Positions 1 through 12,476 of a stretch of DNA of 64,000 nucleotides are shown piece after piece; the first letter of the stretch is position 1, and each line of letters begins with the position of its first letter. Below the pieces are notes generated by a model. It had not been told where the DNA came from, did not search any database, and worked only from the letters and a program-made list of their open reading frames with translations. Origin of the DNA: Paraconexibacter algicola (GTDB lineage: Bacteria > Actinomycetota > Thermoleophilia > Solirubrobacterales > Solirubrobacteraceae); the NCBI RefSeq assembly GCF_003044185.1, contig NZ_PYYB01000003.1, forward strand, positions 248,001-312,000, written 5' to 3'. The position numbers and the translations under genes were made by a program.

Positions 1-3000
1 GTCGGTCCCGCCGAGGAACACCGGCTCCTCGCTGCCGATCGCCACGCTGATCCGGTTCACCGGGGCAGAGCCGTTGTAGGTGACCTGGCCATCCTCCAGG
101 TTCAGCGCGAGGTCGAGGACCTCGGGCAGCTGGTCGATGACCGCGTTCGCCTGCAGCGACTCGGTGTCGATGTCCGCCGTGAAGAGGCCACCGGCGGTCT
201 CGGTGCGCAGCTGCACCGCGTCGCTGGTGTCCAGGTTCAGCTTCTTCAGCTGCCGCACGCGGGCGGCGAGCTCGAAGTCCTGCCCGTCACGGTCCTTGAG
301 GATCGCGCCCTGGTCGGCGGGCAGCGCCGGCTCGGGCTTGCCGTCCTCCCAGGCCTGGATCTCGATCAGCTGGATCGGCTGGTCGGCGGTGAGCGAGGCG
401 CCCCCGGCGTCCTGCGCGAACCCGAGCGTCACGTGCGCGGGGAGCTTCTCGATGCGGGCCTTGATGCGGTTGCCCTCGCCGAGGATCGGCTGCGCCAGAC
501 GCGCGTTCAGCGTCAGCAGCTCGATGCCCTGGTCATCGCCCTCGGCGTTCGTGCCGTCGAAGGTGATCTCGCCGTCGTCGAGCCCGAGGCCGAGCTTCGC
601 GTTGGCCGGCAGGTCGAGGATGTCGGCCTGCGCGGCGACGTCGGCGGTGTCGATGTCGATCGCGAACGGACCGCCGGCGGTGCGGGCCTCGAGCCCGACC
701 TCGCCGGAGAACGCGGCCGTGAGCTTGCGCAGCTCGCGGATGCGGGCGGCGAGCACGAACGGCTCACCGGCGCGGTCGCGGTAGATCGCCCCCTGCCGGG
801 TGGTGTCGTCCAGCGGCGCCGGGAGCGCGGTGGCCCCGTCGCTGGCGAGCAGCTCGAGGCTGCCGATCGCGGCGTCCCCGTCGTCCCCGGCGACGACGCT
901 CGCGCCCGTGCCGGAGTCGTCGAGCTCGACGGCGATCTTCGACGGGAGGTCGAGGATCGTGGCCTGCAGCCGCGAGGCGCGGCCGAACAGCGGCGTGGCG
1001 GAGGTCGCGGTGAGCGCGACGCGGTCCACGCCGTCGCCGTGCCCGTCGAGCGTCAGCCGCCCGGCGCCGAGGTCGGCGGTCAGGTCGGTGTGCGCGGGCA
1101 GGTTCTCGATCTGCGCGTCGACGTCGAGGCCCGGCGAGGCGACGAGCACCCGGAAGGGCGTGCTGCGCAGCTTCGAGGTCAGGCCGACGTCGTCGCCGGA
1201 CAGGTTGACCGTGACCTCGCGGAGGTCCAGGAGGCGCGCGGCGAGCACGTAGCCCGCCGGCGTGTCGCGGAGCACCGCGCCCTGCGGGGTGCCGAGCGTG
1301 GCGTCCACGTCGACGGCGTCCGCTGCGTCGGTGGCGCCGAGGGTCAGCTCCTCGATCGGGTCGGAGGCGACGACGCTCGCGCCGGTGCCGCCGTCGGCGA
1401 GGTCGATCGTCACGTTCGGGGCGAGCTTCTTGACCCCGAGGTCGATGCGCGTGGCGCGGCCGATGAGCGGCTGGGCGCTGCGCACGTTCAGCGCGACGCT
1501 CTCGATGCCCTGCGGGTCGCCGTCGGCGTTCTTTCCGGCGAACGTCAGCTTGCCGGCGTCCTGGTCGAAGCCGACCTGCACGTCGGCGGGCAGGTCGCGG
1601 ATCGCGCCGCGCGCCGTCAGGTCGGCGGTGTCGACCTCGACGTCGAACGGGCCACCGGCGGTCTTCGCCGTGAGGCTGACCGACGGCTGCAGGCCGACGT
1701 CGATGGAGCGCAGGCCGCGGATGCGGGCGCCGGCGACGAAGCCCGCGGGACGGTCGACGTAGCGCACGCCGTTGGCGCCGTCGGCCGGCAGGTCGCCGAC
1801 GAGGTCGACGGGACGGTCGGCCGCGGCCAGCTCGATCAGGCCGATCGGCTCGCTCGCGGTGACCTTGATGCCGTCGTCGGCCTGGTCGAGGTCGAGGGTC
1901 AGGTCGGGGGCGATGTCCTCGATGTGGCCCTTGAGCTGGTTGGCCCGGCCGACGAGCGCCCCGCTGGTGCGGAGGTTCAGGTCGAGCGCGTCGATGCCCT
2001 GCGGCTCGTCGCCCGCGGTCCGGCCGCGGAAGCCGATGCGCAGGTCGTCGAGGTTCGCGGTGATGGTGGACTTCGCCGGCAGCTCGGTGATCTGCGCGGA
2101 GCCGGTGAGGTCGTCGGTGTCGATGTCCGCCCGGAAGACGCCGCCCGCGGTCTCGGTGCTGATGCGCAGCTCGTCGCCGAGGTCGGCGGCGATGCGGCGC
2201 AGCTCGCGGATCCGTGCGCCGACGACGAAGTCGCCGCCGGTGCGGTCGGTGTAGCGGACGCCCTGGACGTCGCCCGCCGGCAGGTCCGCCGCGCGGTCGA
2301 TCAGGCGGTTGGCCGCGACGAGCTCGATCGAGCCGATCGGGGCGCTGGACTGCACGGTGAAGTCGTCGCCGTTCGGCTGCAGGCCGAGCTCGACCTCCGC
2401 CGGCAGGCCACGGACGTCGGCGTCGATCCGGTCGGCGCGGCCGAACAGCGTGCCGCCGACCGCGCGGGCGGTGACCGCGATGCGGTCGATGCCCTGCGGG
2501 TCGCCGTCGGCGTCGGCACCGGTGAAGCGCAGGGCCGCGGCGTCGTCGTCGATCCCGAAGGTCGCGCGGGCCGGCAGGTCGAGGACCTGGCCGCCGGCCT
2601 CGAGGTCCGCGGTGCGGACGTCGAGGGAGAACGGGCCGCCCTTGGTGACGGCGTTCAGCGTGGTGCCGTCACCGGTGTCGATGCCGACCTCGCGCAGCTC
2701 GCGGACGCGGGCCGCGATGCGGAACTCGCCGCCGGGGACGTCACGGTAGACGACGCCGTCGCTGGTGCCGACCGGCAGCGCCTCGGAGCCGTTGGAGGCC
2801 ACGAGCTCGACCTTGCCGAGCGCGCCGCCGCCCTCGACCTTGAAGCCCGTCTTGTCGCCGTCCTGGACGAGCGAGGCGATCGTGCGGGCGGGGATGCCCT
2901 CGATCGTGCCGCGGATCTTCGTGGCCCGGCCGACGAGCGGCTGGGTGCTGTCGGCGTTCAGGACGATCCGGCCGATGCCGGTGCCCTTGCCGTCGAAGTC

Positions 3001-4473
3001 GACCTTGAAGTCCTGCGGGTCGACGGAGAGGTCGAACTCGCTCGGCAGGTTCAGGACGCGGGCGGTGATGGTCCGGCCCGGATCCTTGATGCGGGCGAGC
3101 AGCGGCGTCGCGGCGATCTTGGCGGAGACGCGCGGCGCGCCGCCGCCGAGCGAGAACGTCGCGCGCTGGATGCCCGGGATGCGCAGCGCGGTCGAGGAGA
3201 CCGTGCCGTCGTCGTCGAGGTTCAGGTACGCGGGCTCGCCGGCGAGGAACTTGGGCTCGCCGTTGGCGAAGCCGACCTCGGTGAGGCCGATGGCGCCGCC
3301 CGTGGTCTGGACGGAGCCCCCGTCGTCGTTGACCGCGGCGGTGAAGCCGGTCGGGACGTCGTCGAGGTTGAGGATCGTCTTCTGCGCGGTCGTGCCCGCG
3401 ACCTTGGAGACGAGCGAGGCGCGGATCGCCGCGACGCGCGCGGACGCCGTGTAGGTCGCCTGCACGTTGCCCGAGGTCCGCGCGGTCAGGCCGAGCGAGG
3501 AGGGCAGGTTGTTGATCTGCGCGGAGATCTCGTCGACCGACTGGCCGTCGACGACGCTGGCGGACAGGGTGGCCGGGCCGACGCGGTTCTGCGTCAGGGT
3601 CGCCTGGACCTCGTCGCCGGCGCGGGCGGTGATCGCCGCGGTGTCGGGCGAGGCGCCGTAGGCGAGCCGGACCCGGGTCGGGTTGACCGGGTTGGCGGTC
3701 GTGCCGTCGTAGATCCCGGCGACCAGGGCGATCTTCTCGCCGCGGGCCGTCTGGCTGAGGTTGAAGGTGTAGGTGCCGTTCGGCCGGGCGATCGTGTCGA
3801 TCGGGGTCCCGAGCGTGAAGCGACCGGGCGCGCGATCGTCCAGCGCGTCGTAGCCGAAGGCGATCTGCGAGCGCCCGAGGGTCCGGCGCGTCTGGTCGCG
3901 CAGCACCGCCTGCACGGAGACCGGGAGGGTCGAGGTCTCGCCGAACGCGCGGACGAGCTCGACGCCGACCTGGTTGTTCCCCGTGATCGTGATCGTGCCG
4001 GTGAGGTCGGCGAGCACGTCGTCGTCGACGTTCAGCGCCGTCGGGACCCCGACGACCGCGGTGTGGCTGCGCGAGACCGTCGTGCCGTTAGCGCGCTTCC
4101 AGGTCGTCTCGAACTTGTACTCGAGCAGGCCGGCGCTGCAGGTCAGGGTCGCGAGGCCCTGCCCGATCGTCCCGACGCCGTTCTCCCCGAGCCCGGGCGT
4201 GTTGAGGATCTGGGAGAGGCCGGTGGCGGTCGGGCAGAGCAGCTGCGAGGCGGTCGGCAGGACGCCCTGCTGACCGGTGAGGAGGCCACCGACGGAGGGC
4301 ACGAGCGTCGAGGTGGTGCCGTTGACGGTGCTCGTCACCGCGCTGGTCGTGTTGCCCAGCAGTCCGCCGAGCAGGGCGTGCGCGGGTGCGGCGATGGCGA
4401 GCGACGCGATCGCCGTCGCACCCGTGACCCGCGCGACACGCGTCGCGCGACCTGCATGGAACCTCGGACCCAT
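1..4473 (-). CDS. giant secreted repeat protein, 3' end outside window
   Basis: An open frame without stops runs from an ATG at 4473 to the window edge (1491 codons, no stop reached). GGGGAG lies a few bases before the ATG. The N-terminus is a signal peptide: basic residues, a hydrophobic Ala-rich stretch, and APAHA cleavage near residue 34. The next ~300 residues look unique. From about residue 600 onward the protein consists of at least six diverged ~160-165-residue repeats. Each carries a TAGGPF-like motif followed by alternating acidic and hydrophobic residues, then 'QGI' and 'GRAxRI' motifs. The TAGG motif recurs near 195, 675, 1150, 1655, 2145 and 2640. The composition, rich in Asp, Thr, Ala and Leu with hardly any Cys, suits an extracellular beta-rich surface or adhesion-like protein. 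I do not recognise a named family; a cell-surface role is inferred only from the signal peptide and repeats. Confidence 0.75.
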   Translation of the reverse strand, partial: MGPRFHAGRATRVARVTGATAIASLAIAAPAHALLGGLLGNTTSAVTSTVNGTTSTLVPSVGGLLTGQQGVLPTASQLLCPTATGLSQILNTPGLGENGVGTIGQGLATLTCSAGLLEYKFETTWKRANGTTVSRSHTAVVGVPTALNVDDDVLADLTGTITITGNNQVGVELVRAFGETSTLPVSVQAVLRDQTRRTLGRSQIAFGYDALDDRAPGRFTLGTPIDTIARPNGTYTFNLSQTARGEKIALVAGIYDGTTANPVNPTRVRLAYGASPDTAAITARAGDEVQATLTQNRVGPATLSASVVDGQSVDEISAQINNLPSSLGLTARTSGNVQATYTASARVAAIRASLVSKVAGTTAQKTILNLDDVPTGFTAAVNDDGGSVQTTGGAIGLTEVGFANGEPKFLAGEPAYLNLDDDGTVSSTALRIPGIQRATFSLGGGAPRVSAKIAATPLLARIKDPGRTITARVLNLPSEFDLSVDPQDFKVDFDGKGTGIGRIVLNADSTQPLVGRATKIRGTIEGIPARTIASLVQDGDKTGFKVEGGGALGKVELVASNGSEALPVGTSDGVVYRDVPGGEFRIAARVRELREVGIDTGDGTTLNAVTKGGPFSLDVRTADLEAGGQVLDLPARATFGIDDDAAALRFTGADADGDPQGIDRIAVTARAVGGTLFGRADRIDADVRGLPAEVELGLQPNGDDFTVQSSAPIGSIELVAANRLIDRAADLPAGDVQGVRYTDRTGGDFVVGARIRELRRIAADLGDELRISTETAGGVFRADIDTDDLTGSAQITELPAKSTITANLDDLRIGFRGRTAGDEPQGIDALDLNLRTSGALVGRANQLKGHIEDIAPDLTLDLDQADDGIKVTASEPIGLIELAAADRPVDLVGDLPADGANGVRYVDRPAGFVAGARIRGLRSIDVGLQPSVSLTAKTAGGPFDVEVDTADLTARGAIRDLPADVQVGFDQDAGKLTFAGKNADGDPQGIESVALNVRSAQPLIGRATRIDLGVKKLAPNVTIDLADGGTGASVVASDPIEELTLGATDAADAVDVDATLGTPQGAVLRDTPAGYVLAARLLDLREVTVNLSGDDVGLTSKLRSTPFRVLVASPGLDVDAQIENLPAHTDLTADLGAGRLTLDGHGDGVDRVALTATSATPLFGRASRLQATILDLPSKIAVELDDSGTGASVVAGDDGDAAIGSLELLASDGATALPAPLDDTTRQGAIYRDRAGEPFVLAARIRELRKLTAAFSGEVGLEARTAGGPFAIDIDTADVAAQADILDLPANAKLGLGLDDGEITFDGTNAEGDDQGIELLTLNARLAQPILGEGNRIKARIEKLPAHVTLGFAQDAGGASLTADQPIQLIEIQAWEDGKPEPALPADQGAILKDRDGQDFELAARVRQLKKLNLDTSDAVQLRTETAGGLFTADIDTESLQANAVIDQLPEVLDLALNLEDGQVTYNGSAPVNRISVAIGSEEPVFLGGTD

Positions 4474-4716
4474 GAACTGCTCCCCACGTCGTGGAACGTC
4501 ACCGTGCGCCCTGCCGTGGGCGGTGTCCCGCGAAGTACCCCTACCTCCGGACGAACGGCAACGTACACATGAGCCGCGGCGAACTGCAACCGCGGTAACG
4601 CGTTGTTTTCAGGTTCCGCACCGCGACATCTCGTCGCAGAAAGACGACCCGGAAAATGGACTGTCGATCGACGCCAACGCGAACGCGCCAATCTTGGACA
4701 AAGATCCAGGTAGCGC

Positions 4717-5751
4717 TCAGCCGGCGGCGTGCCGGGCGATCGCGGCGACGAACCCGTCGACGTCGTCCGCGGTCGTGTCCCACGAGCACATCCACCGGAC
4801 CTCGCCGGTCAGCTCGTCCCACACGTAGAACAGGAAGCCGTCCGCCCACAGCGCCTCGCGCACCCGCTCGGGCACGATCGCGAACACCGCGTTGGCCTGG
4901 ACCTCCTGCGTCACCCGGACCCCCGGGAGCCCCGTCACGCCCGCCGCCAGACGGGCGGCCATCGCGTTGGCGTGCGCGGCGTGCAGGCGCCACCGGTCGT
5001 CGGTCAGGAGCGCGTGCACCTGCGCGGAGAGGTACCGCTGCTTGGAGGCCAGCTGCATCGCGGCCTTGCGCCGCCAGGCGATCCCGTCGGCGTGCGCCTC
5101 GTCGAACAGCACGACCGCCTCCGCTCCCAGGCCGCCGTTCTTCGTGATCCCCAGCGCCAGCGCGTCGACGCCCAGATCCCGGGTGGCCTCGCGCAGCGAG
5201 CAGCCGTCGGCCGCCGCCGCGTTCATGATCCGCGCGCCGTCGAGGTGCAGCAGCATCCCGTGCTCGTGCGCGAGGTCGGCGAGCGCGCGAATCTCCGCGC
5301 GGGCGTAGCGGGTGCCCAGCTCGGTCGACTGCGTGATCGACAGGACCTTCGGCTGCACCGCGTGCTCGTCGCCGAAGCGCACGAGCCGCGGCGCCACGAG
5401 CTCGGGGGTCAGCTTGCCGTCCGGCGTCGCGACCGGCAGGAGCTTGCGGGCGAGCAGCCGCTCCGGGGCGCCGCCCTCGTCGACGTAGATGTGGGCGCTC
5501 TCCGCGCACACGATCGCCTGGTGGTGCGCCGGCGCCAGGCTCTCCAGGCACAGGACGTTCGCGGCCGTCCCACCCCAGACGAAGAAGACCTGCGCCTCCT
5601 CCCCCAGGTGCTCGCGGACGAGCGCGACCGCGTCCTGGGTCACCGGGTCCGCCCCGTAGGCGGGCACGTGACCGAGCGCGTCGGCCTGCGCGACCGCGGC
5701 GAGGACCTCCGGGAGCGCCCCCGCGTAGTTGTCCGAGGCGAACGCCGTCAC
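4717..5751 (-). CDS. low-specificity threonine aldolase-like PLP enzyme
   Basis: A 344-residue fold-type I PLP enzyme of the beta-eliminating lyase/threonine aldolase family, which typically cleaves L-threonine or allo-threonine to glycine and acetaldehyde. It starts with the family-typical 'FASDNYAG' region. It has a glycine-rich phosphate-contact motif near residues 74-80 (FVWGGTAAN), the PLP-ring Asp in 'LHLDGARI', and the Schiff-base Lys in 'GITKNGGLG'. The GTG start at 5751 forms a GTGA overlap with the SDR stop, so translation is probably coupled; the frame extends further upstream but only through the SDR gene. It is the last gene of a three-gene operon with an SDR and a DUF6421 fusion, so its true substrate may be a beta-hydroxy amino acid peculiar to that pathway. 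Confidence 0.88.
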   Translation of the reverse strand: MTAFASDNYAGALPEVLAAVAQADALGHVPAYGADPVTQDAVALVREHLGEEAQVFFVWGGTAANVLCLESLAPAHHQAIVCAESAHIYVDEGGAPERLLARKLLPVATPDGKLTPELVAPRLVRFGDEHAVQPKVLSITQSTELGTRYARAEIRALADLAHEHGMLLHLDGARIMNAAAADGCSLREATRDLGVDALALGITKNGGLGAEAVVLFDEAHADGIAWRRKAAMQLASKQRYLSAQVHALLTDDRWRLHAAHANAMAARLAAGVTGLPGVRVTQEVQANAVFAIVPERVREALWADGFLFYVWDELTGEVRWMCSWDTTADDVDGFVAAIARHAAG

Positions 5752-6488
5752 CGGCGCGTCCCGCCGTGCAGCTGCAGGCGCTGGCCGTTCATCGCGCTCG
5801 CCCCGTCCCCCAGGACGTAGGCGATCGCGGCGGCGATGTCGTCCGCGTCGGCGAACGTCCGGTAGGCGCTGTCGGCCTTGCCCTCGACCATCGCGGCGGT
5901 CGCGATCGCGTCGACCACGACGATGTTCGCCGTCGCGCGGCGGGGATCGTCCGCCTCCTGCTGGGCGAAGCCGTCGGCGAGCGCGAGCGTCCACGCCTCC
6001 GCCGCCGCCTTCGCCGCGCCGTAGGCGGCGTTCGTGAACGTCGGCGCCTGCGCCTGCTTGCTGCTGACGAGCACGAAGCGGCCGTGCCCGCTGTCCAGCA
6101 GCGGTCCCGCGAAGGCGCGGCTCGTGTGCTGCACGGTCCGCACGAGCAGGTCGTGCAGCAGCGTCCAGTCCTCCAGCGGGGCGGTCGGCAGCGGCTCGCC
6201 GCCCCGCCAGCCGCCGACGAGGTGCGCGAGCCCCGCGACCGTCCCGAAGCGCTCCACGAGCGCGGCGGCCCAGGCGGCTGTCGCGTCGGGGTCGAGCAGG
6301 TCGACCGTGCGGACGTCCACGCGCTCGGCCGGGAGCGCGAGCTCGGCCGCGAGCGCGTCGAGCTTCGCGGCGTCGACGTCGGTCAGCGCGAGCGTCGCGC
6401 CGTGCGCGGCGAGCGCCCGGGCGACCGCCGGGCCCAGGCCCCCGGTCGCGCCGGCGATCGCGACGACGCGGCCGTCGAGCGCGCTCAC
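5748..6488 (-). CDS. short-chain dehydrogenase/reductase (SDR)
   Basis: A 246-residue classical SDR. The Rossmann nucleotide motif GATGGLG is at residues 13-19. The active-site region has 'VSSKQ' (Ser) and YGAAK (Tyr-x3-Lys) at about residues 156-160. An Asp after beta-2 ('LTDVD') suggests NAD(H) preference. The GTG start at 6488 overlaps the stop of the DUF6421 gene (GTGA), and its own stop overlaps the threonine aldolase start, so the three genes form one translationally coupled operon. The substrate is unknown. From context it may oxidise or reduce a hydroxy group on a compound also handled by the aldolase. Confidence 0.88.
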   Translation of the reverse strand: MSALDGRVVAIAGATGGLGPAVARALAAHGATLALTDVDAAKLDALAAELALPAERVDVRTVDLLDPDATAAWAAALVERFGTVAGLAHLVGGWRGGEPLPTAPLEDWTLLHDLLVRTVQHTSRAFAGPLLDSGHGRFVLVSSKQAQAPTFTNAAYGAAKAAAEAWTLALADGFAQQEADDPRRATANIVVVDAIATAAMVEGKADSAYRTFADADDIAAAIAYVLGDGASAMNGQRLQLHGGTRR

Positions 6489-8590
6489 GCGGCCACCAGG
6501 GCCGGCTCGAGCTTCGGCTGCAGCTGCGTGTAGAAGACGCTCAGCGGGAACTCGTCGTCCTGCACGGCGTCGATCCACCGCTTCGGATCGGGCTCCTCGT
6601 GCAGGGCGCGGGCGCCGCCGGTCCACACCGACGTGACGGCGGGCGCGACGTAGGAGCTGACGAGGTCGTGGGCGGTCATCCAGTAACGCACCTTCGGGAG
6701 ATCGATGCCGGACCGGTACAGCGCCTCCACCTTTGCACGAAGCGCGACGACGCCGTCCGCCACGTCGTTCCAGTCGATCGTCAGGCGGTTGTCGGTCCAG
6801 CGGATCGTGCCGCGCTCGTGCAGGAACGCGAACAGCAGCTGGCCGCCGAGCCCGTCGTAGTTGCGCACCCGCGAGCCCGTCACCGGGAAGCGGAACAGGC
6901 GGTCGAAGAGGATCGCGGTCTGCACGTGGCGGGCGAACGCGAAGCCCTCCGCCTCGAGCCCGACCGCCTCGCTGAACGCGGTCAGGTCGCAGCGCAACTC
7001 CTCCAGCGAGTACATCCAGTACGGCATCCGCTGGCGGATCATGAATGGGTCGAACGGCAGGTCGCCGCGGCTGTGCGCCCGGTCGTGGACGAGGTCCCAC
7101 AGCACGAACGCCTCCTGGCTGATGCGCGGCGAGGCCAGCAGCGCCGCGGCGTCGGCGGGCAGGTTCACGCCGAGGACCTCGACGGCGGCGCCGCAGACGC
7201 GCCGGAAGCGCTCGGCCTCACGGTCGCAGAAGATGCCGCCGAAGTGGTTGACGGTCGGCTTGCGCTCCCCGGTCGAGAACGTCTCCGGGAAGAGGACCGC
7301 GCACTCGCTGTCGTAGCCCGCCGTGCGGTCCACGAACGTCACCGGCACGAACTTCGGGTTGTCGTAGCGGGTGCGCTCGAGCTCGGCCAGCCACGCCGGC
7401 CACGGCACGCGCACGACGAGCGCCTCGAAGCGGGTGTCGCGCGACCCGTTCTGCGTGTACATCGGGAACACGACGAGGTGCTCGATGCCGTCCTCGCGGT
7501 GCAGGTCGGGACGGAAGTGCTCGAGCGCGCCGGTGAAGTCGGGGCGCGGGAAGCCGTCGGCCACCCAGCGGTGCAGGTCGGCGACGGTCGCCTCGACGTA
7601 GGCGGCCTGGTGCGGGAAGTGCGGGGCGAGCGCGGCGACCGCGTCGGCGATGCGGCCGACGCGCGCGGCGAGGTCGGCGGCGTCGTGCGTGGCGGTGTCG
7701 ACCGAGCCGTCGGGCTCCTGCAGCAGCCGCAGCGCGTCGACCTCGGCCTTGAGCGTGGCCCAGTGCGGGTCGGCGAGGACCGGGGACGCGGCGGGCGTCC
7801 CGCCGGCGGCGGCGAAGGCGGACTGCGCCGCCCACGTGATCGTGTCGAGCCAGAGCGCGCGGTGGTCGAGGTCGCCGAGGCAGTCGTCGCCGAACAGGTC
7901 GGAGTCGGCGAAGAGGACGACGCGGCCGGCGCCCGCGGTCGTGGCGGCGAGCAGCGTCGCGCCCGCGGGGTCGGCCTGCGCGGAGGTCTGCAGCAGCGGG
8001 GTGGCGCCGTTGCGCAGCTCGAGGGCCCCGGCGCGGTAGAACGCGGCGCGCTCGACGCGGGCGAGCAGGTCGGCGCCGCCGACGGTGCTGCGGGCTGCGG
8101 CGCGCTGGGCGAGCACCCAGGCGGGGTTGCCCGCGTGCGCGTGCGTGTAGTCGTAGACGGTGGCGGTGGCGACGCCCAGGCCGAAGCGGGCGAGCAGCCG
8201 GTCGACGTTGGTGCCGTACTTCGCCTGCTCGGTCTCGCCGAGCACGACGAGGCCGCCGCCGGCGCGGACCCACGCCTCGATGGCGTCGATCTCGGCGTCG
8301 GCGAACACCGGGTACGCGCCGTCGGTCTTCTCCCACGTCGCCTCCGAGGGGTGCGCGATGACGAGCACGTCGGCGTCGGCGAGCGCGTGTGCGTCGAGCG
8401 CGCCGTGCCGATGGGCGGCGACGGTCAGCTCGCGGCCGCGCAGCGCGTCGGCGGCGTCGGCGTAGCTCGAGTCCTGCGGATGGGCGGGCTGCAGCGCGGC
8501 GGCCCGCTCGCGCGAGATCGTCCACGCCTCCCCGTGGGACTCGTCGAAGAGGACGCGCGCGACGGCGGCAGGGGCGTTCACGAGGGCCAT
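6485..8590 (-). CDS. DUF6421 protein with N-terminal GATase-like domain
   Basis: A 701-residue protein made of two parts. Residues ~10-235 resemble the DUF4350/IFT52-type class I glutamine amidotransferase-like fold, with 'VLFDESHGEAW' at the start and 'GGGLVVLGETE' in the middle, but without the catalytic cysteine. Residues ~245-700 match the DUF6421 family as I know it from Streptomyces, with blocks such as 'VFPMYTQNG', 'LERTRYDNP', 'GGIFCDREA', 'HDRAHSRGDLPFDPF' and 'YDGLGGQLLF'. The conserved His/Asp/Glu residues could bind metal, but no function is established. Streptomyces homologues, as I recall them, are only about the size of the second part. It is first in an operon with an SDR and a threonine aldolase. 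A TAGCCT hexamer lies 6 nt before the ATG, suggesting a leaderless message. Confidence 0.78.
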   Translation of the reverse strand: MALVNAPAAVARVLFDESHGEAWTISRERAAALQPAHPQDSSYADAADALRGRELTVAAHRHGALDAHALADADVLVIAHPSEATWEKTDGAYPVFADAEIDAIEAWVRAGGGLVVLGETEQAKYGTNVDRLLARFGLGVATATVYDYTHAHAGNPAWVLAQRAAARSTVGGADLLARVERAAFYRAGALELRNGATPLLQTSAQADPAGATLLAATTAGAGRVVLFADSDLFGDDCLGDLDHRALWLDTITWAAQSAFAAAGGTPAASPVLADPHWATLKAEVDALRLLQEPDGSVDTATHDAADLAARVGRIADAVAALAPHFPHQAAYVEATVADLHRWVADGFPRPDFTGALEHFRPDLHREDGIEHLVVFPMYTQNGSRDTRFEALVVRVPWPAWLAELERTRYDNPKFVPVTFVDRTAGYDSECAVLFPETFSTGERKPTVNHFGGIFCDREAERFRRVCGAAVEVLGVNLPADAAALLASPRISQEAFVLWDLVHDRAHSRGDLPFDPFMIRQRMPYWMYSLEELRCDLTAFSEAVGLEAEGFAFARHVQTAILFDRLFRFPVTGSRVRNYDGLGGQLLFAFLHERGTIRWTDNRLTIDWNDVADGVVALRAKVEALYRSGIDLPKVRYWMTAHDLVSSYVAPAVTSVWTGGARALHEEPDPKRWIDAVQDDEFPLSVFYTQLQPKLEPALVAA

Positions 8591-8596
8591 GCGGAA

Positions 8597-8602
8597 AGGC
8601 TA
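8597..8602 (-). promoter_or_regulatory. putative -10 box of the DUF6421 operon
   Basis: On the minus strand this reads TAGCCT, ending 6 nt before the ATG at 8590. That spacing would place the transcription start at the start codon (leaderless). No Shine-Dalgarno sequence is visible. Confidence 0.5.
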
Positions 8603-8635
8603 GGCGGGACCGATGCGACGCTCAATGCCGATCCG

Positions 8636-8652
8636 CTGCCGGAGTACGGCAG
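8636..8652. promoter_or_regulatory. inverted repeat, candidate Lrp/AsnC operator
   Basis: CTGCCG, 5 nt, CGGCAG: perfect 6-bp arms between the divergent DUF6421 operon and the Lrp/AsnC gene. It abuts a CAGAAT hexamer (8650-8655) that lies 7 nt before the regulator start. Lrp/AsnC proteins commonly autoregulate through ~15-17-bp sites in such intergenic regions, so this is the best local candidate. Confidence 0.45.
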
Positions 8653-8662
8653 AATCCTGCGC

Positions 8663-9109
8663 ATGGACGACATGGACCGCCAGATTCTTGCGCTGCTGAC
8701 CGACGACGGCCGTCGCACGTACGACGACATCGCCCGGCGCGTGTCGCTCTCCTCCCCCGCGGTGAAGCGCCGCGTGGACCGGCTGCGCCGCGACGGGACC
8801 CTGCGCGGCTTCACCGCGGTCGTCGACCACGCCGCGCTCGGCTACGGCGCCGAGGCGCTGGTGGAGCTGTTCTACGGGCCCGGCGTGACGCTGGACCGGG
8901 TCGCCGCGTCGCTGCGGGCGGTGCCCGAGGTCGTGGAGGCCTGGAGCGTCACCGGCGAGGCCGACGCGATCGCCCGCGTGCGTACCCGCGACAACGCGGA
9001 CCTCGAGCGCCTGATCCGCTCCCTGCAGGCGGACGGCACCGTCGTGCGCACCCGCTCCCAGGTCGTCCTCTCCCGCCTGGTGCACCGCCGCGGCGAGGAC
9101 GACGCCTGA
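8663..9109 (+). CDS. Lrp/AsnC family transcriptional regulator
   Basis: A 148-residue single Lrp/AsnC protein. The N-terminal winged helix-turn-helix covers residues ~3-60 ('MDRQILALLTDDGR', 'SSPAVKRRVDRL'). A RAM/ACT-like ligand-binding domain covers ~65-145 ('VVEAWSVTGEAD'). Such regulators sense amino acids or related small molecules and form octamers. The gene is divergent from the threonine aldolase/SDR/DUF6421 operon with 72 bp between starts, so it probably regulates that operon in response to a substrate or product. CAGAAT 7 nt before the ATG and the lack of an SD suggest a leaderless transcript. Confidence 0.93.
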   Translation: MDDMDRQILALLTDDGRRTYDDIARRVSLSSPAVKRRVDRLRRDGTLRGFTAVVDHAALGYGAEALVELFYGPGVTLDRVAASLRAVPEVVEAWSVTGEADAIARVRTRDNADLERLIRSLQADGTVVRTRSQVVLSRLVHRRGEDDA

Positions 9110-9409: not shown

Positions 9410-10069
9410 TCAGTTCCAGGCCGACTGGGCGCGGGCGGCGTCGACGCGGCGGCGTAGGTGCTCGCGCGGTGGCAGCGGGAGCGCGAGGAGCAGCTCGCGG
9501 GCGCGCGCCCGCAGGTCCAGGCGGCCGATCTCGTGGGCGCGCAGCGCCACGAGGTCGAGCAGCGCGGCGGCCCCCTCGTGCGGGCAGAGCCAGGCGACGT
9601 CGCCACCGTGGTCGAGGTCGCGGGCGTCGAGCAGCCGGCCCTCCTCGCGCGGGACGCTCACCAGCGGCAGATCGAGGTCCCGGTGGGCGAGGGCGACGAG
9701 GCCCGGGGACCGCACGACGTCCACGGCCCAGCCGGCGCGGTGCGCCGCCGCCGCGGCGACGAGCGCGACCGCGAGCTCGTGCCCGGCGGCGGTCGCGAGC
9801 ACGCGGTCGGGGACCAGGTCGTCGATGCCGGCCGGGACCGCGCGCGGACCGAGCACGGCGAACGACGCGACGACCCGCTCGCCGAGCGCGTCGAGCTGCA
9901 AAGCGGGGTCCCGCGTGGGCACGGTGCGCAGGCGGTTGGCCAGCGGCGCGATCCAGTCCAGGCCGCCGGCGACGGACGGCGGGTCCAGCGCGCCCGACAG
10001 CGCGTGCAGCAGCGCCCCCAGCCCGGGGTCGCGCAGCCCGGCCACGCGGGTGAACGGCGCCGGGGTCAT
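9410..10069 (-). CDS. SirB1/transglutaminase-like (Transglut_core2) protein
   Basis: A 219-residue protein resembling the SirB1 family. The central '[17 protein letters not shown]' to 'SPGLVALAH' region aligns by eye with the usual 'NSxLxxVLxxRxGxPIxLxxxY...GHF' block. The tail around '[20 protein letters not shown]' matches the C-terminal TPR-like helices of that family. The residues normally Asn, Ile/Ser and the His of 'PGHF' are altered here, so it is probably not an active transglutaminase. The ATG overlaps the rpsD stop (ATGA), so it is translated with ribosomal protein S4. Family assignment is moderate; function unknown. Confidence 0.55.
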
Positions 10070-10698
10070 CGCCGCGCGTACCGCTCGACGACGTGCTGCT
10101 CGACCACGGGGACGTGGATCTCGTCGCGCACGGGCAGCCGCAGCACGCGGCCGGTGAGCGCGTCGAGGTCGGCCTGCAGCCAGGGCGGCACGGTCCCGAC
10201 CTCCTCGGCGGCCTGCCGCGCCACCGGCTCGACCGGCGCGCCCGGCGCCAGGGTGATGACCGAGCCCTCGGCGACCAGCGCGGACGCGATGTCGCAGCGG
10301 CGCCCGTCCAGCCAGATGTGCCCATGGCCGACGAACTGCCGCGCCTGCGCGCGCGTGTTGGCGAGGCCGAGCCGGTAGACGACGTTGTCCAGGCGCCGCT
10401 CCAGCGTCTGCAACAGCGCCTCGCCGGTGGTGACGTCGCGGCGGCGGGCGGCCTGCTCGACGTAGCGGCGGAACTGCCGCTCGCGCACGCCGTAGAGGAG
10501 CTTCAACTTCTGCGTCTCGCGCAGCTGCACGCTGTAGACCGACGGGCGCCCTCGGCGCGCGGCCCCGTGCTGGCCGGGCGGCACGGCGCCGCGCCGCTCC
10601 AGGGACGTCTTCCCGAGCAGGCGTCGGGTGCCCTTCAGGCCGAGATCGACGCCCTCGCGCCGCTCGAGCTTCTCGACTGGTCCGGTGTATCGACCCAT
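10066..10698 (-). CDS. rpsD: 30S ribosomal protein S4, cysteine-free (C-) form
   Basis: A 210-residue S4 starting at MGRYTGP. It has the N-terminal assembly region and the S4 RNA-binding domain ('[25 protein letters not shown]') at residues ~90-150. S4 nucleates 30S assembly on 16S rRNA and can autoregulate. The N-terminal 40 residues contain none of the four cysteines of zinc-binding actinobacterial S4. The gene is not in the usual rpsM-rpsK-rpsD-rpoA operon; instead it is coupled to a SirB1-like gene and divergent from an RNA helicase. It may be a zinc-independent paralogue or the only S4; the window cannot decide. A GTG 12 nt upstream is an alternative start. Confidence 0.9.
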
Positions 10699-10700
10699 GT

Positions 10701-10716
10701 GTAAGGGCACCCTAAC
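10701..10716. promoter_or_regulatory. 16-bp imperfect palindrome at the rpsD start
   Basis: On the rpsD strand it reads GTTAGGGTGCCCTTAC: 7-bp arms with one mismatch around TG. It contains TAGGGT, a -10-like hexamer, and ends 2 nt before the rpsD ATG. Either a repressor operator overlapping the promoter or a small RNA hairpin hiding the start codon would fit. Confidence 0.45.
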
Positions 10717-10763: not shown

Positions 10764-12476
10764 GTGCAGGACGATCTCCCCCCCACCCTCTTCACCGATC
10801 TCGGCCTCCGCGCCGAGCTCCTCGACGCGCTCACCGCCCTCGGCTACGAGGAGCCCACGCCGATCCAGGCGCAGACGATCCCGCCGCTGCTGGAGGGCCG
10901 CGACCTCCTCGGCCAGGCCGCCACCGGCACGGGCAAGACCGCGGCCTTCGCGCTGCCCGCCCTGGAGCGCCTCGCCGCGAGCGGCACCGAGGACAAGGCG
11001 CCCCGCGTGCTCGTCCTCGCCCCCACGCGCGAGCTCGCCACCCAGGTCTCCGAGGCGATGCACAAGTACGGGCGCGGCATCGGCGCCCGCGTGCTCCCGA
11101 TCTACGGCGGCCAGCCGATCGTGCGGCAGCTGCGCGCGCTCAGCGGCGGCGTCGACGTCGTCGTCGCCACCCCCGGCCGCGCACTGGACCACATCGGCCG
11201 CGGCACGCTCGACCTCTCGCGCCTGCACACCGTCGTCCTCGACGAGGCCGACGAGATGCTCGACATGGGCTTCGCCGAGGACATCGAGTCGATCCTCGAG
11301 GCCGCCCCGGCCGACCGCCAGACCGTCCTCTTCTCCGCGACGATGCCGCCGCGCATCGCGCGCATGGTGAAGAAGCACCTGGCCGACCCGGTCCACATCG
11401 AGGTCAAGCGCGCCGCGACGCCGGAGGGCGAGGCGCCGAAGGTCCGGCAGGCCGCATACGTCGTGCACCGCCCACACAAGGCCGCGGCGCTCGGGCGCAT
11501 CCTCGACCTCGAGGTGCCGACCGCCGCGATCGTCTTCTGCCGCACCCGCGCCGAGGTGGACGCCCTGACCGAGACGCTCAACGGCCGCGGCTACCGCGCC
11601 GAGGCGCTGCACGGCGGGCTCAGCCAGGAGCAGCGCAGCAAGGTCCTGCAGCGCCTGCGCGCGGGCACCACCGAGCTGCTCATCGCCACCGACGTCGCCG
11701 CCCGCGGCCTCGACATCGACACGCTGACCCACGTCGTCAACTACGACGTGCCCGCGTCGCCGGAGACGTACGTGCACCGCATCGGCCGCGTCGGCCGGGC
11801 CGGACGCGAGGGCGTCGCGATCACGCTCGCCCAGCCGCGCGAGCACCGGATGCTCAAGACGATCGAGAAGATCACGCGCCAGCCGGTGAAGATCGAGAAG
11901 GTCCCGACGATCGCCGACCTGCACGCCCGGCGCCTGGAGCTCACCCGCGCGGCGCTGCAGGAGTCGCTGCTGCAGGAGGACGAGCTCGAGCGCTTCCGCG
12001 TCGTCGTCGAGACGCTCGCCGACGAGTTCGACGTGATGCAGGTCGCGATGGCCGCCGTGCGGCTCGCCCATCAGGCGCAGGCCGGGGTCGACGAGGACGA
12101 CGAGGAGGAGATCCCGCAGGCCTCGCTCGACCGCGGCCCCAAGCCCGACCGCGACCGTGGCCCTGCCCGCCCCGGCGCGGGCGGCGGCAAGCCCGGTGGC
12201 GGCCGCCGCCTCGACGCGGAGGGCCCGACCACGCGGATCTTCATCGGGGCCGGACGCAGCGCCGGGATCCGGCCGCAGGACCTCGTCGGGGCGATCACCG
12301 GCGAGTCGTCGCTGACCGGCCGGCAGATCGGCGCGATCGAGATCACCGACCGCTTCTCGCTCGTCGAGCTGCCCGAGAACCGGGCCGACGAGGTCATCGC
12401 CGCGATGCGCTCCAGCACGATCAAGGGCCGCAAGGCGACCGTGCGGCGCGAGAAGTTCGACCGCAAGCGCCGCTGA
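10764..12476 (+). CDS. DEAD-box ATP-dependent RNA helicase (CsdA/DbpA type)
   Basis: A 570-residue helicase that unwinds RNA duplexes, typically in ribosome assembly, cold adaptation or mRNA decay. Visible motifs are the Q motif region '[11 protein letters not shown]', Walker A ATGTGKT (~53-59), PTRELA, TPGR, DEAD (~160), SAT, then '[15 protein letters not shown]' and HRIGRVGR in the second RecA domain. An acidic then Gly/Pro/Lys-rich linker leads to a C-terminal DbpA RNA-binding RRM (~488-570, '[15 protein letters not shown]'). The GTG start at 10764 is chosen because GAGGAG or GTGAGG precedes it closely. It is divergent from rpsD, consistent with a ribosome-related job. Confidence 0.95.

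Follow-up and report, generated by a model that had tools for sequence, protein, structure and literature searches.

The window (the whole stretch of 64,000 nucleotides of Paraconexibacter algicola that was analysed) contains three genes encoded on the minus strand in the order DUF6421, SDR, and threonine aldolase. The first codes for a DUF6421 protein of 701 aa (6485..8590, minus), identified by Pfam profile and AlphaFold2 model, the second for an SDR of 246 aa (5748..6488, minus; Pfam SDR, E 9e-27), and the third for an L-threonine aldolase-type PLP enzyme of 344 aa (4717..5751, minus; PF01212, E 2e-44). Successive genes share 4-bp stop/start overlaps, exactly two in number, at 6485-6488 (DUF6421/SDR) and 5748-5751 (SDR/aldolase), so these coordinates bear out the three-gene operon proposed in an earlier, sequence-only reading. 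That reading was also right in placing a divergent Lrp/AsnC gene 72 bp away: it lies on the plus strand (8663..9109; 148 aa; PF01037 and PF13404, Pfam E 2e-17), across a gap at 8591-8662. All four gene identifications pass the Pfam cut-offs.

The palindrome noted earlier between the divergent genes is present at 8636-8652 (CTGCCG-GAGTA-CGGCAG, an inverted repeat). Shuffling the 72-bp sequence produces one at least as long in 20% of cases; hence, taken alone, it is no more than expected by chance, and its status as a proven operator is rejected. More telling is the fact that the gap region can be aligned without gaps across 12 relatives, the alignment including a conserved block TC[AG]ATGCCG at 8622-8630. 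A strict promoter scan found none. By eye, there is a possible leaderless promoter for the operon (TTGAGC, 17 bp, TAGCCT; 8597-8625, minus), and -10-like boxes lie close to both start codons, so that both mRNAs would be nearly leaderless. Members of the Lrp/AsnC family are usually amino-acid sensors.

Past the 3′ end of the operon, an open frame of at least 1491 aa (1-4473, minus) runs off the window, and the opposite strand has a matching shadow frame that is also open. At 10066-10710 (minus) lies a second gene for ribosomal protein S4 (PF00163 and S4 domain), beside a DEAD-box helicase gene at 10764-12476. A stronger-scoring S4 gene is found elsewhere in the genome, at C5:121481, and the copy in the window looks like a divergent paralogue.

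Domains of the DUF6421 protein

A PolE-like Fe/pterin oxidase domain is predicted at residues ~270-698 of the DUF6421 protein, from PF19985 and from fold match; the PF19985 (DUF6421) profile covers residues 275-697 (E 3e-179, 597 bits against a cut-off of 25). The sequence-only reading gave the family no known function, which no longer holds: PolE, which its authors place in DUF6421, is an Fe/tetrahydrobiopterin-dependent oxidase of the polyoxin antifungal pathway (PMC12614342). It desaturates L-Ile to 3,4-dehydro-Ile, the only product reported (PMC12614342). Its activity requires Fe2+, O2, and BH4; adding dihydropteridine reductase raises it 2-3 fold, and soluble mutants of the HExxHxnE motif have lost it (PMC12614342). 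The same authors count ~10,000 proteins in the family and give its iron motif as HE/DxxHx(21-23)E (PMC12614342). PolE is the one DUF6421 member with a published function found in the open-access literature.

The crystal structures of PolE (SnPolE/SmPolE; PDB 9J2E, 9J2R, 9J3G) match residues 407-603 of the P. algicola protein at the sequence level (E 5e-13). An AlphaFold2 model of the protein (mean pLDDT 93, pTM 0.93, with lowest confidence at about residues 500-520, beside the iron motif) superposes on SmPolE and SnPolE along the full length of the catalytic domain (Z 30.5-31.1, rmsd 3.3-3.9, 351-359 residues; Foldseek E 1.5e-15). This match, with Z ~31, ranks above the one with DPP III (6EOM, Z 18.4). 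A DPP III-like peptidase is rejected, because the motif is HDRAH and an HExxGH is lacking; the fold is only a related one.

An earlier suggestion was to look by structure prediction for a metal site in residues 245-700, and a predicted iron site does fall at residues 502-531 of the PolE-like fold. It consists of H502-D503-x-x-H506 and E530-E531 (HDxxH-x23/24-E; codons at 6998..7087, minus), is placed by conservation and by alignment with the HExxH...LEEL of PolE, and has all five residues invariant among 67 DUF6421 homologues. Between H506 and E531 there are 24 residues, against 21-23 in the published motif, and E530 would give 23; the PolE alignment nevertheless points to E531 as the ligand, one residue past the published range. 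Among other positions, F140 and Y280 of SnPolE align with F434 and Y578, both invariant, whereas Y157, the residue mutated in the L-Ile complex structure, corresponds to an invariant Ile453. Because the metal motif and the F140 and Y280 positions are kept while Y157 is replaced, the redox centre looks conserved and the substrate pocket looks different from that of PolE. Overall identity between the two proteins is ~20%.

The DUF6421 protein is thus very probably an Fe/pterin oxidase, its dependence on Fe, O2, and tetrahydropterin being read across from PolE. Since PolE is characterised as such an enzyme and its structures match, the carrier step once proposed for DUF6421 is unlikely, and the family does have a characterised homologue, albeit a distant one with a different pocket residue. 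The protein could also be a PolE-like 3,4-desaturase working on L-isoleucine (or Val/Leu), with the aldolase and the SDR acting on later products. The shared fold and metal motif would suit such an enzyme, but the low identity and the invariant isoleucine at the Y157 position speak against it, and a 3,4-desaturated amino acid would carry no beta-hydroxyl for the aldolase to cleave; we regard this as very improbable.

The N-terminal part of the protein (residues ~1-260) is a GIFT/DUF4350 domain (PF14258, E 1e-9 over 89-248). It had been described as class I GATase-like, and the two folds are related, but by family it matches DUF4350 and IFT52/GIFT best. The nearest fold is the GIFT/IFT52 N-terminus (profile E 3e-10; Z 26.6 over 218 residues), here fused to an oxidase, and amidotransferase-like folds score lower (3RHT, Z 17.1; Pdx2, Z ~14). 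Nor is the domain a local extra, as had been supposed, since 57 of the 80 nearest named homologues carry it, as do all 20 same-class loci; it is absent from Streptomyces and the other lineages of the phylum sample (18 loci). On a tree of the catalytic domain, rooted at the midpoint only, its distribution takes two changes to explain, and the long form is found across the major clades. As long forms lie on both sides of this root, it is simpler to assume two losses. Hence, the domain is probably ancestral and lost in two other lineages, and a recent local fusion is rejected.

Conservation of the three-gene unit

Three sets of loci were compared: the 80 nearest named homologues, picked by similarity to the P. 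algicola DUF6421 protein; 18 loci of a phylum sample, which come from a family search and were not picked by similarity; and 20 loci of the P. algicola class or of closer relatives. An aldolase gene lies directly downstream in 77/80, 15/18, and 17/20 of these, respectively (109 of 118 DUF6421 genes overall), and an SDR gene adjoins DUF6421 in 68/80, 18/18, and 10/20 (96 of 118 overall). Some of the missing aldolases and SDRs correspond to contig ends (L061, L093, L114). The association seen in P. algicola therefore extends far beyond its genome, and DUF6421 genes are not found mostly without these neighbours. Flanking genes vary with the clade, and none of them accompanies the unit throughout. 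As the clades are distant and their flanks differ, a frozen accident is unlikely; conservation across the three samples likewise leads us to reject a chance operon. In all likelihood, DUF6421 is functionally coupled to the aldolase.

The regulator is an exception to this trend. An AsnC gene is adjacent and divergent in 14/20 same-class loci, against 5/80 and 2/18 elsewhere, so it is not a general member of the unit. Within the class of P. algicola, the Lrp/AsnC protein probably controls the operon.

The aldolase matches solved L-threonine aldolases over its whole length (7YVR, E 9e-77; 5VYE, E 5e-75; and 1V72, the range extending to E 5e-68), and differs from them in being the fixed partner of a DUF6421 oxidase. 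Residues S6, H87, H130, D171, R174, K204, and R319 are invariant among 45 sequences. K204 is presumably the PLP lysine, and the roles of the His, Asp, and Arg residues are likewise taken from what is known of the family. These residues support an intact active site, predicted to cleave beta-hydroxy-alpha-amino acids. The NCBIfam models for GntG and for low-specificity aldolases both score below their cut-offs on this protein.

Several loci are unusual. The closest homologue (L058, 78% identical) lies on a metagenome-assembled genome named Marmoricola and clusters tightly with Thermoleophilia-type sequences; the label is probably wrong or the assembly mixed. This locus has the same divergent AsnC gene, but is without the SDR found in P. 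algicola. At L144, an amino acid permease gene (3121-4692, minus; PF00324) lies divergently beside a DUF6421-SDR pair that has no full aldolase neighbour. Some DUF6421 copies look broken, one being spread over three separate frames (L035-L037, in G093:C10) and another having one internal TGA (L033, in G077).

The SDR and the putative pathway

The SDR of the operon forms a clade apart from its paralogues, scoring 303 bits where the next of the 58 SDR matches in the genome scores 79, and its model is of high confidence (pLDDT 94.7). It retains the catalytic Ser142, Tyr156, and Lys160, the last two within a Y156xxxK160 motif. Its distinctive element is VGGWRGG (residues 91-97), which is nearly or fully invariant; the invariant columns of the alignment are V91, G92, G93, W94, G96, Y156, K160, E164, and W166. 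At this position the other aligned SDRs of the genome mostly have the usual NNAG-like motif, and none has GGW. A 49-aa consensus segment around the motif, searched against 177,635 PDB sequences, gives 10 matches, three of which are dihydropteridine reductases (1DHR, 1HDR, 9DTW; each E ~0.7), and the alignment with 1DHR places its GGWAGG in register with VGGWRGG. Dihydropteridine reductase (QDPR) is a pterin-recycling SDR, reducing quinonoid dihydropterin with NAD(P)H, and the two proteins are both SDRs of ~245 aa. The likeness was observed only within the motif segment. Taken whole, the P. algicola protein finds ordinary classical alcohol/carbonyl SDRs as its nearest listed matches, by profile and by fold; these fill the lists of best matches, so that the absence of QDPR from them carries little weight.

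The motif suggests, tentatively and at somewhat less than an even chance, that the SDR recycles pterin. In the same oxygenase-aldolase unit it might instead reduce the carbonyl product (an aldehyde or ketone) that the aldolase sets free, or oxidise the beta-hydroxyl of the intermediate. Such roles agree with the classical neighbours among the matches listed, with the retained catalytic residues, and with the absence of the SDR from many oxidase-aldolase loci, as for an accessory carbonyl reductase. Of 22 genomes, picked mostly for lacking the SDR at the locus, 20 have no member of its clade elsewhere at E ≤ 1e-28, and most of these keep DUF6421 and aldolase; supply from another site in the genome is therefore rejected, and the result speaks against pterin recycling. 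On the other side, an invariant GGWxGG, common to dihydropteridine reductase, replaces the usual NNAG, and the SDR persists in three phylum-sample loci without a recognisable aldolase (L140, L141, L144). We consider a role away from pterin rather unlikely. Pterin-4a-carbinolamine dehydratase is also encoded in the P. algicola genome, but equally in relatives without DUF6421, and being nearly universal in these families it gives no independent support. No member of the aromatic amino acid hydroxylase family was found in the P. algicola genome.

The operon set is conserved across many actinobacteria and therefore probably oxidises an amino acid, then splits it. With Fe(II), O2, and tetrahydropterin, the DUF6421 protein would oxidise the beta-carbon of an L-amino acid to yield a beta-hydroxy-alpha-amino acid, which the PLP aldolase would cleave to glycine and an aldehyde or ketone. 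The SDR would most likely reduce quinonoid dihydropterin with NAD(P)H, sustaining the oxygenase, or alternatively reduce the released carbonyl. Hydroxylation followed by retro-aldol cleavage is proposed because next to the Fe/pterin oxidase stands a type of aldolase that splits beta-hydroxy amino acids, and no substrate is named because PolE Y157 is replaced by I453. The beta-hydroxy amino acid chemistry put forward from the sequence remains the best reading, the linkage to aldolase and SDR being conserved, whereas DUF6421 can no longer stand in it as the unknown step. The evidence for hydroxylation and cleavage by DUF6421 and the aldolase seems to us evenly balanced, and the whole chain, with the SDR role left between pterin recycling and carbonyl reduction, falls slightly short of that. 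The parts supported by comparison are the operon structure, the linkage, the metal motif and PolE-type fold of DUF6421, and the apparently intact aldolase site; the substrate, the cleavage direction, hydroxylation over desaturation, and the SDR role we infer. Counting against the scheme are the desaturase activity of PolE, the low identity with it, the spacing of 24, the classical SDRs among the matches listed for the SDR, and the genomes that dispense with the SDR clade.

The likeness to PolE thus concerns the catalytic fold, the HE/DxxH...E site, and the F140 and Y280 positions. The P. algicola protein differs in its added GIFT domain, in HD for HE, in the spacing to the second Glu, in Ile453, and in its partners, which are an aldolase and an SDR instead of PolF. 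For the cleavage, a precedent is the published retro-aldol step of GntG in guanitoxin biosynthesis (PMC10367076), whose NCBIfam model does match the aldolase here, below its cut-off; this is another, cyanobacterial pathway, in which no DUF6421 protein is described. Both the enzyme family and, in general terms, the notion that unusual amino acid pathways surround it have already been published, but in the open-access literature (most subscription papers lie outside it) no description of the three-gene unit was found. In its most specific form, the proposal would be an undescribed, widespread actinobacterial pathway, in which a DPP III/PolE-fold Fe/tetrahydropterin oxygenase beta-hydroxylates a common amino acid, a dedicated aldolase splits the product to glycine and a carbonyl, and a dedicated SDR in the operon recycles the pterin; this conjunction we hold doubtful. 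If true, it would add a new way of cleaving amino acid side chains, as well as a pterin-dependent oxygenase that does not belong to the aromatic amino acid hydroxylase family. The conserved aldolase partner provides a concrete reaction prediction for many of the remaining DUF6421 proteins.

In Streptomyces, the aldolase gene is often directly followed by genes for a transglutaminase-like protein and a stand-alone B3/4 tRNA-editing-type domain (L121, L123, L124, L130, L131, L134, L147, L149). The B3/4 domain is the editing domain of phenylalanyl-tRNA synthetase; therefore, a free copy fits a function in guarding against a non-protein amino acid. This extension counts in favour of the proposed mechanism, as it fits the presence of an unusual amino acid in the cell. 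It would also suit a unit that runs towards synthesis. Here the aldolase would condense glycine with an aldehyde, and DUF6421 and the SDR would then desaturate or oxidise the resulting beta-hydroxy amino acid, giving an unusual amino acid to be secreted or used in signalling or in a natural product. PolE does act in a biosynthetic pathway, and its authors note that many of its homologues adjoin amino-acid-modifying enzymes (PMC12614342). Yet no further gene is constant around the unit, the flanks being clade-specific, and its wide occurrence in several actinobacterial orders, together with the Lrp/AsnC regulator of one class, is more in keeping with the metabolism of a common amino acid; synthesis in this direction seems improbable. 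Under oxidation and cleavage, too, the B3/4 domain of Streptomyces may guard translation against the amino acid of the pathway.
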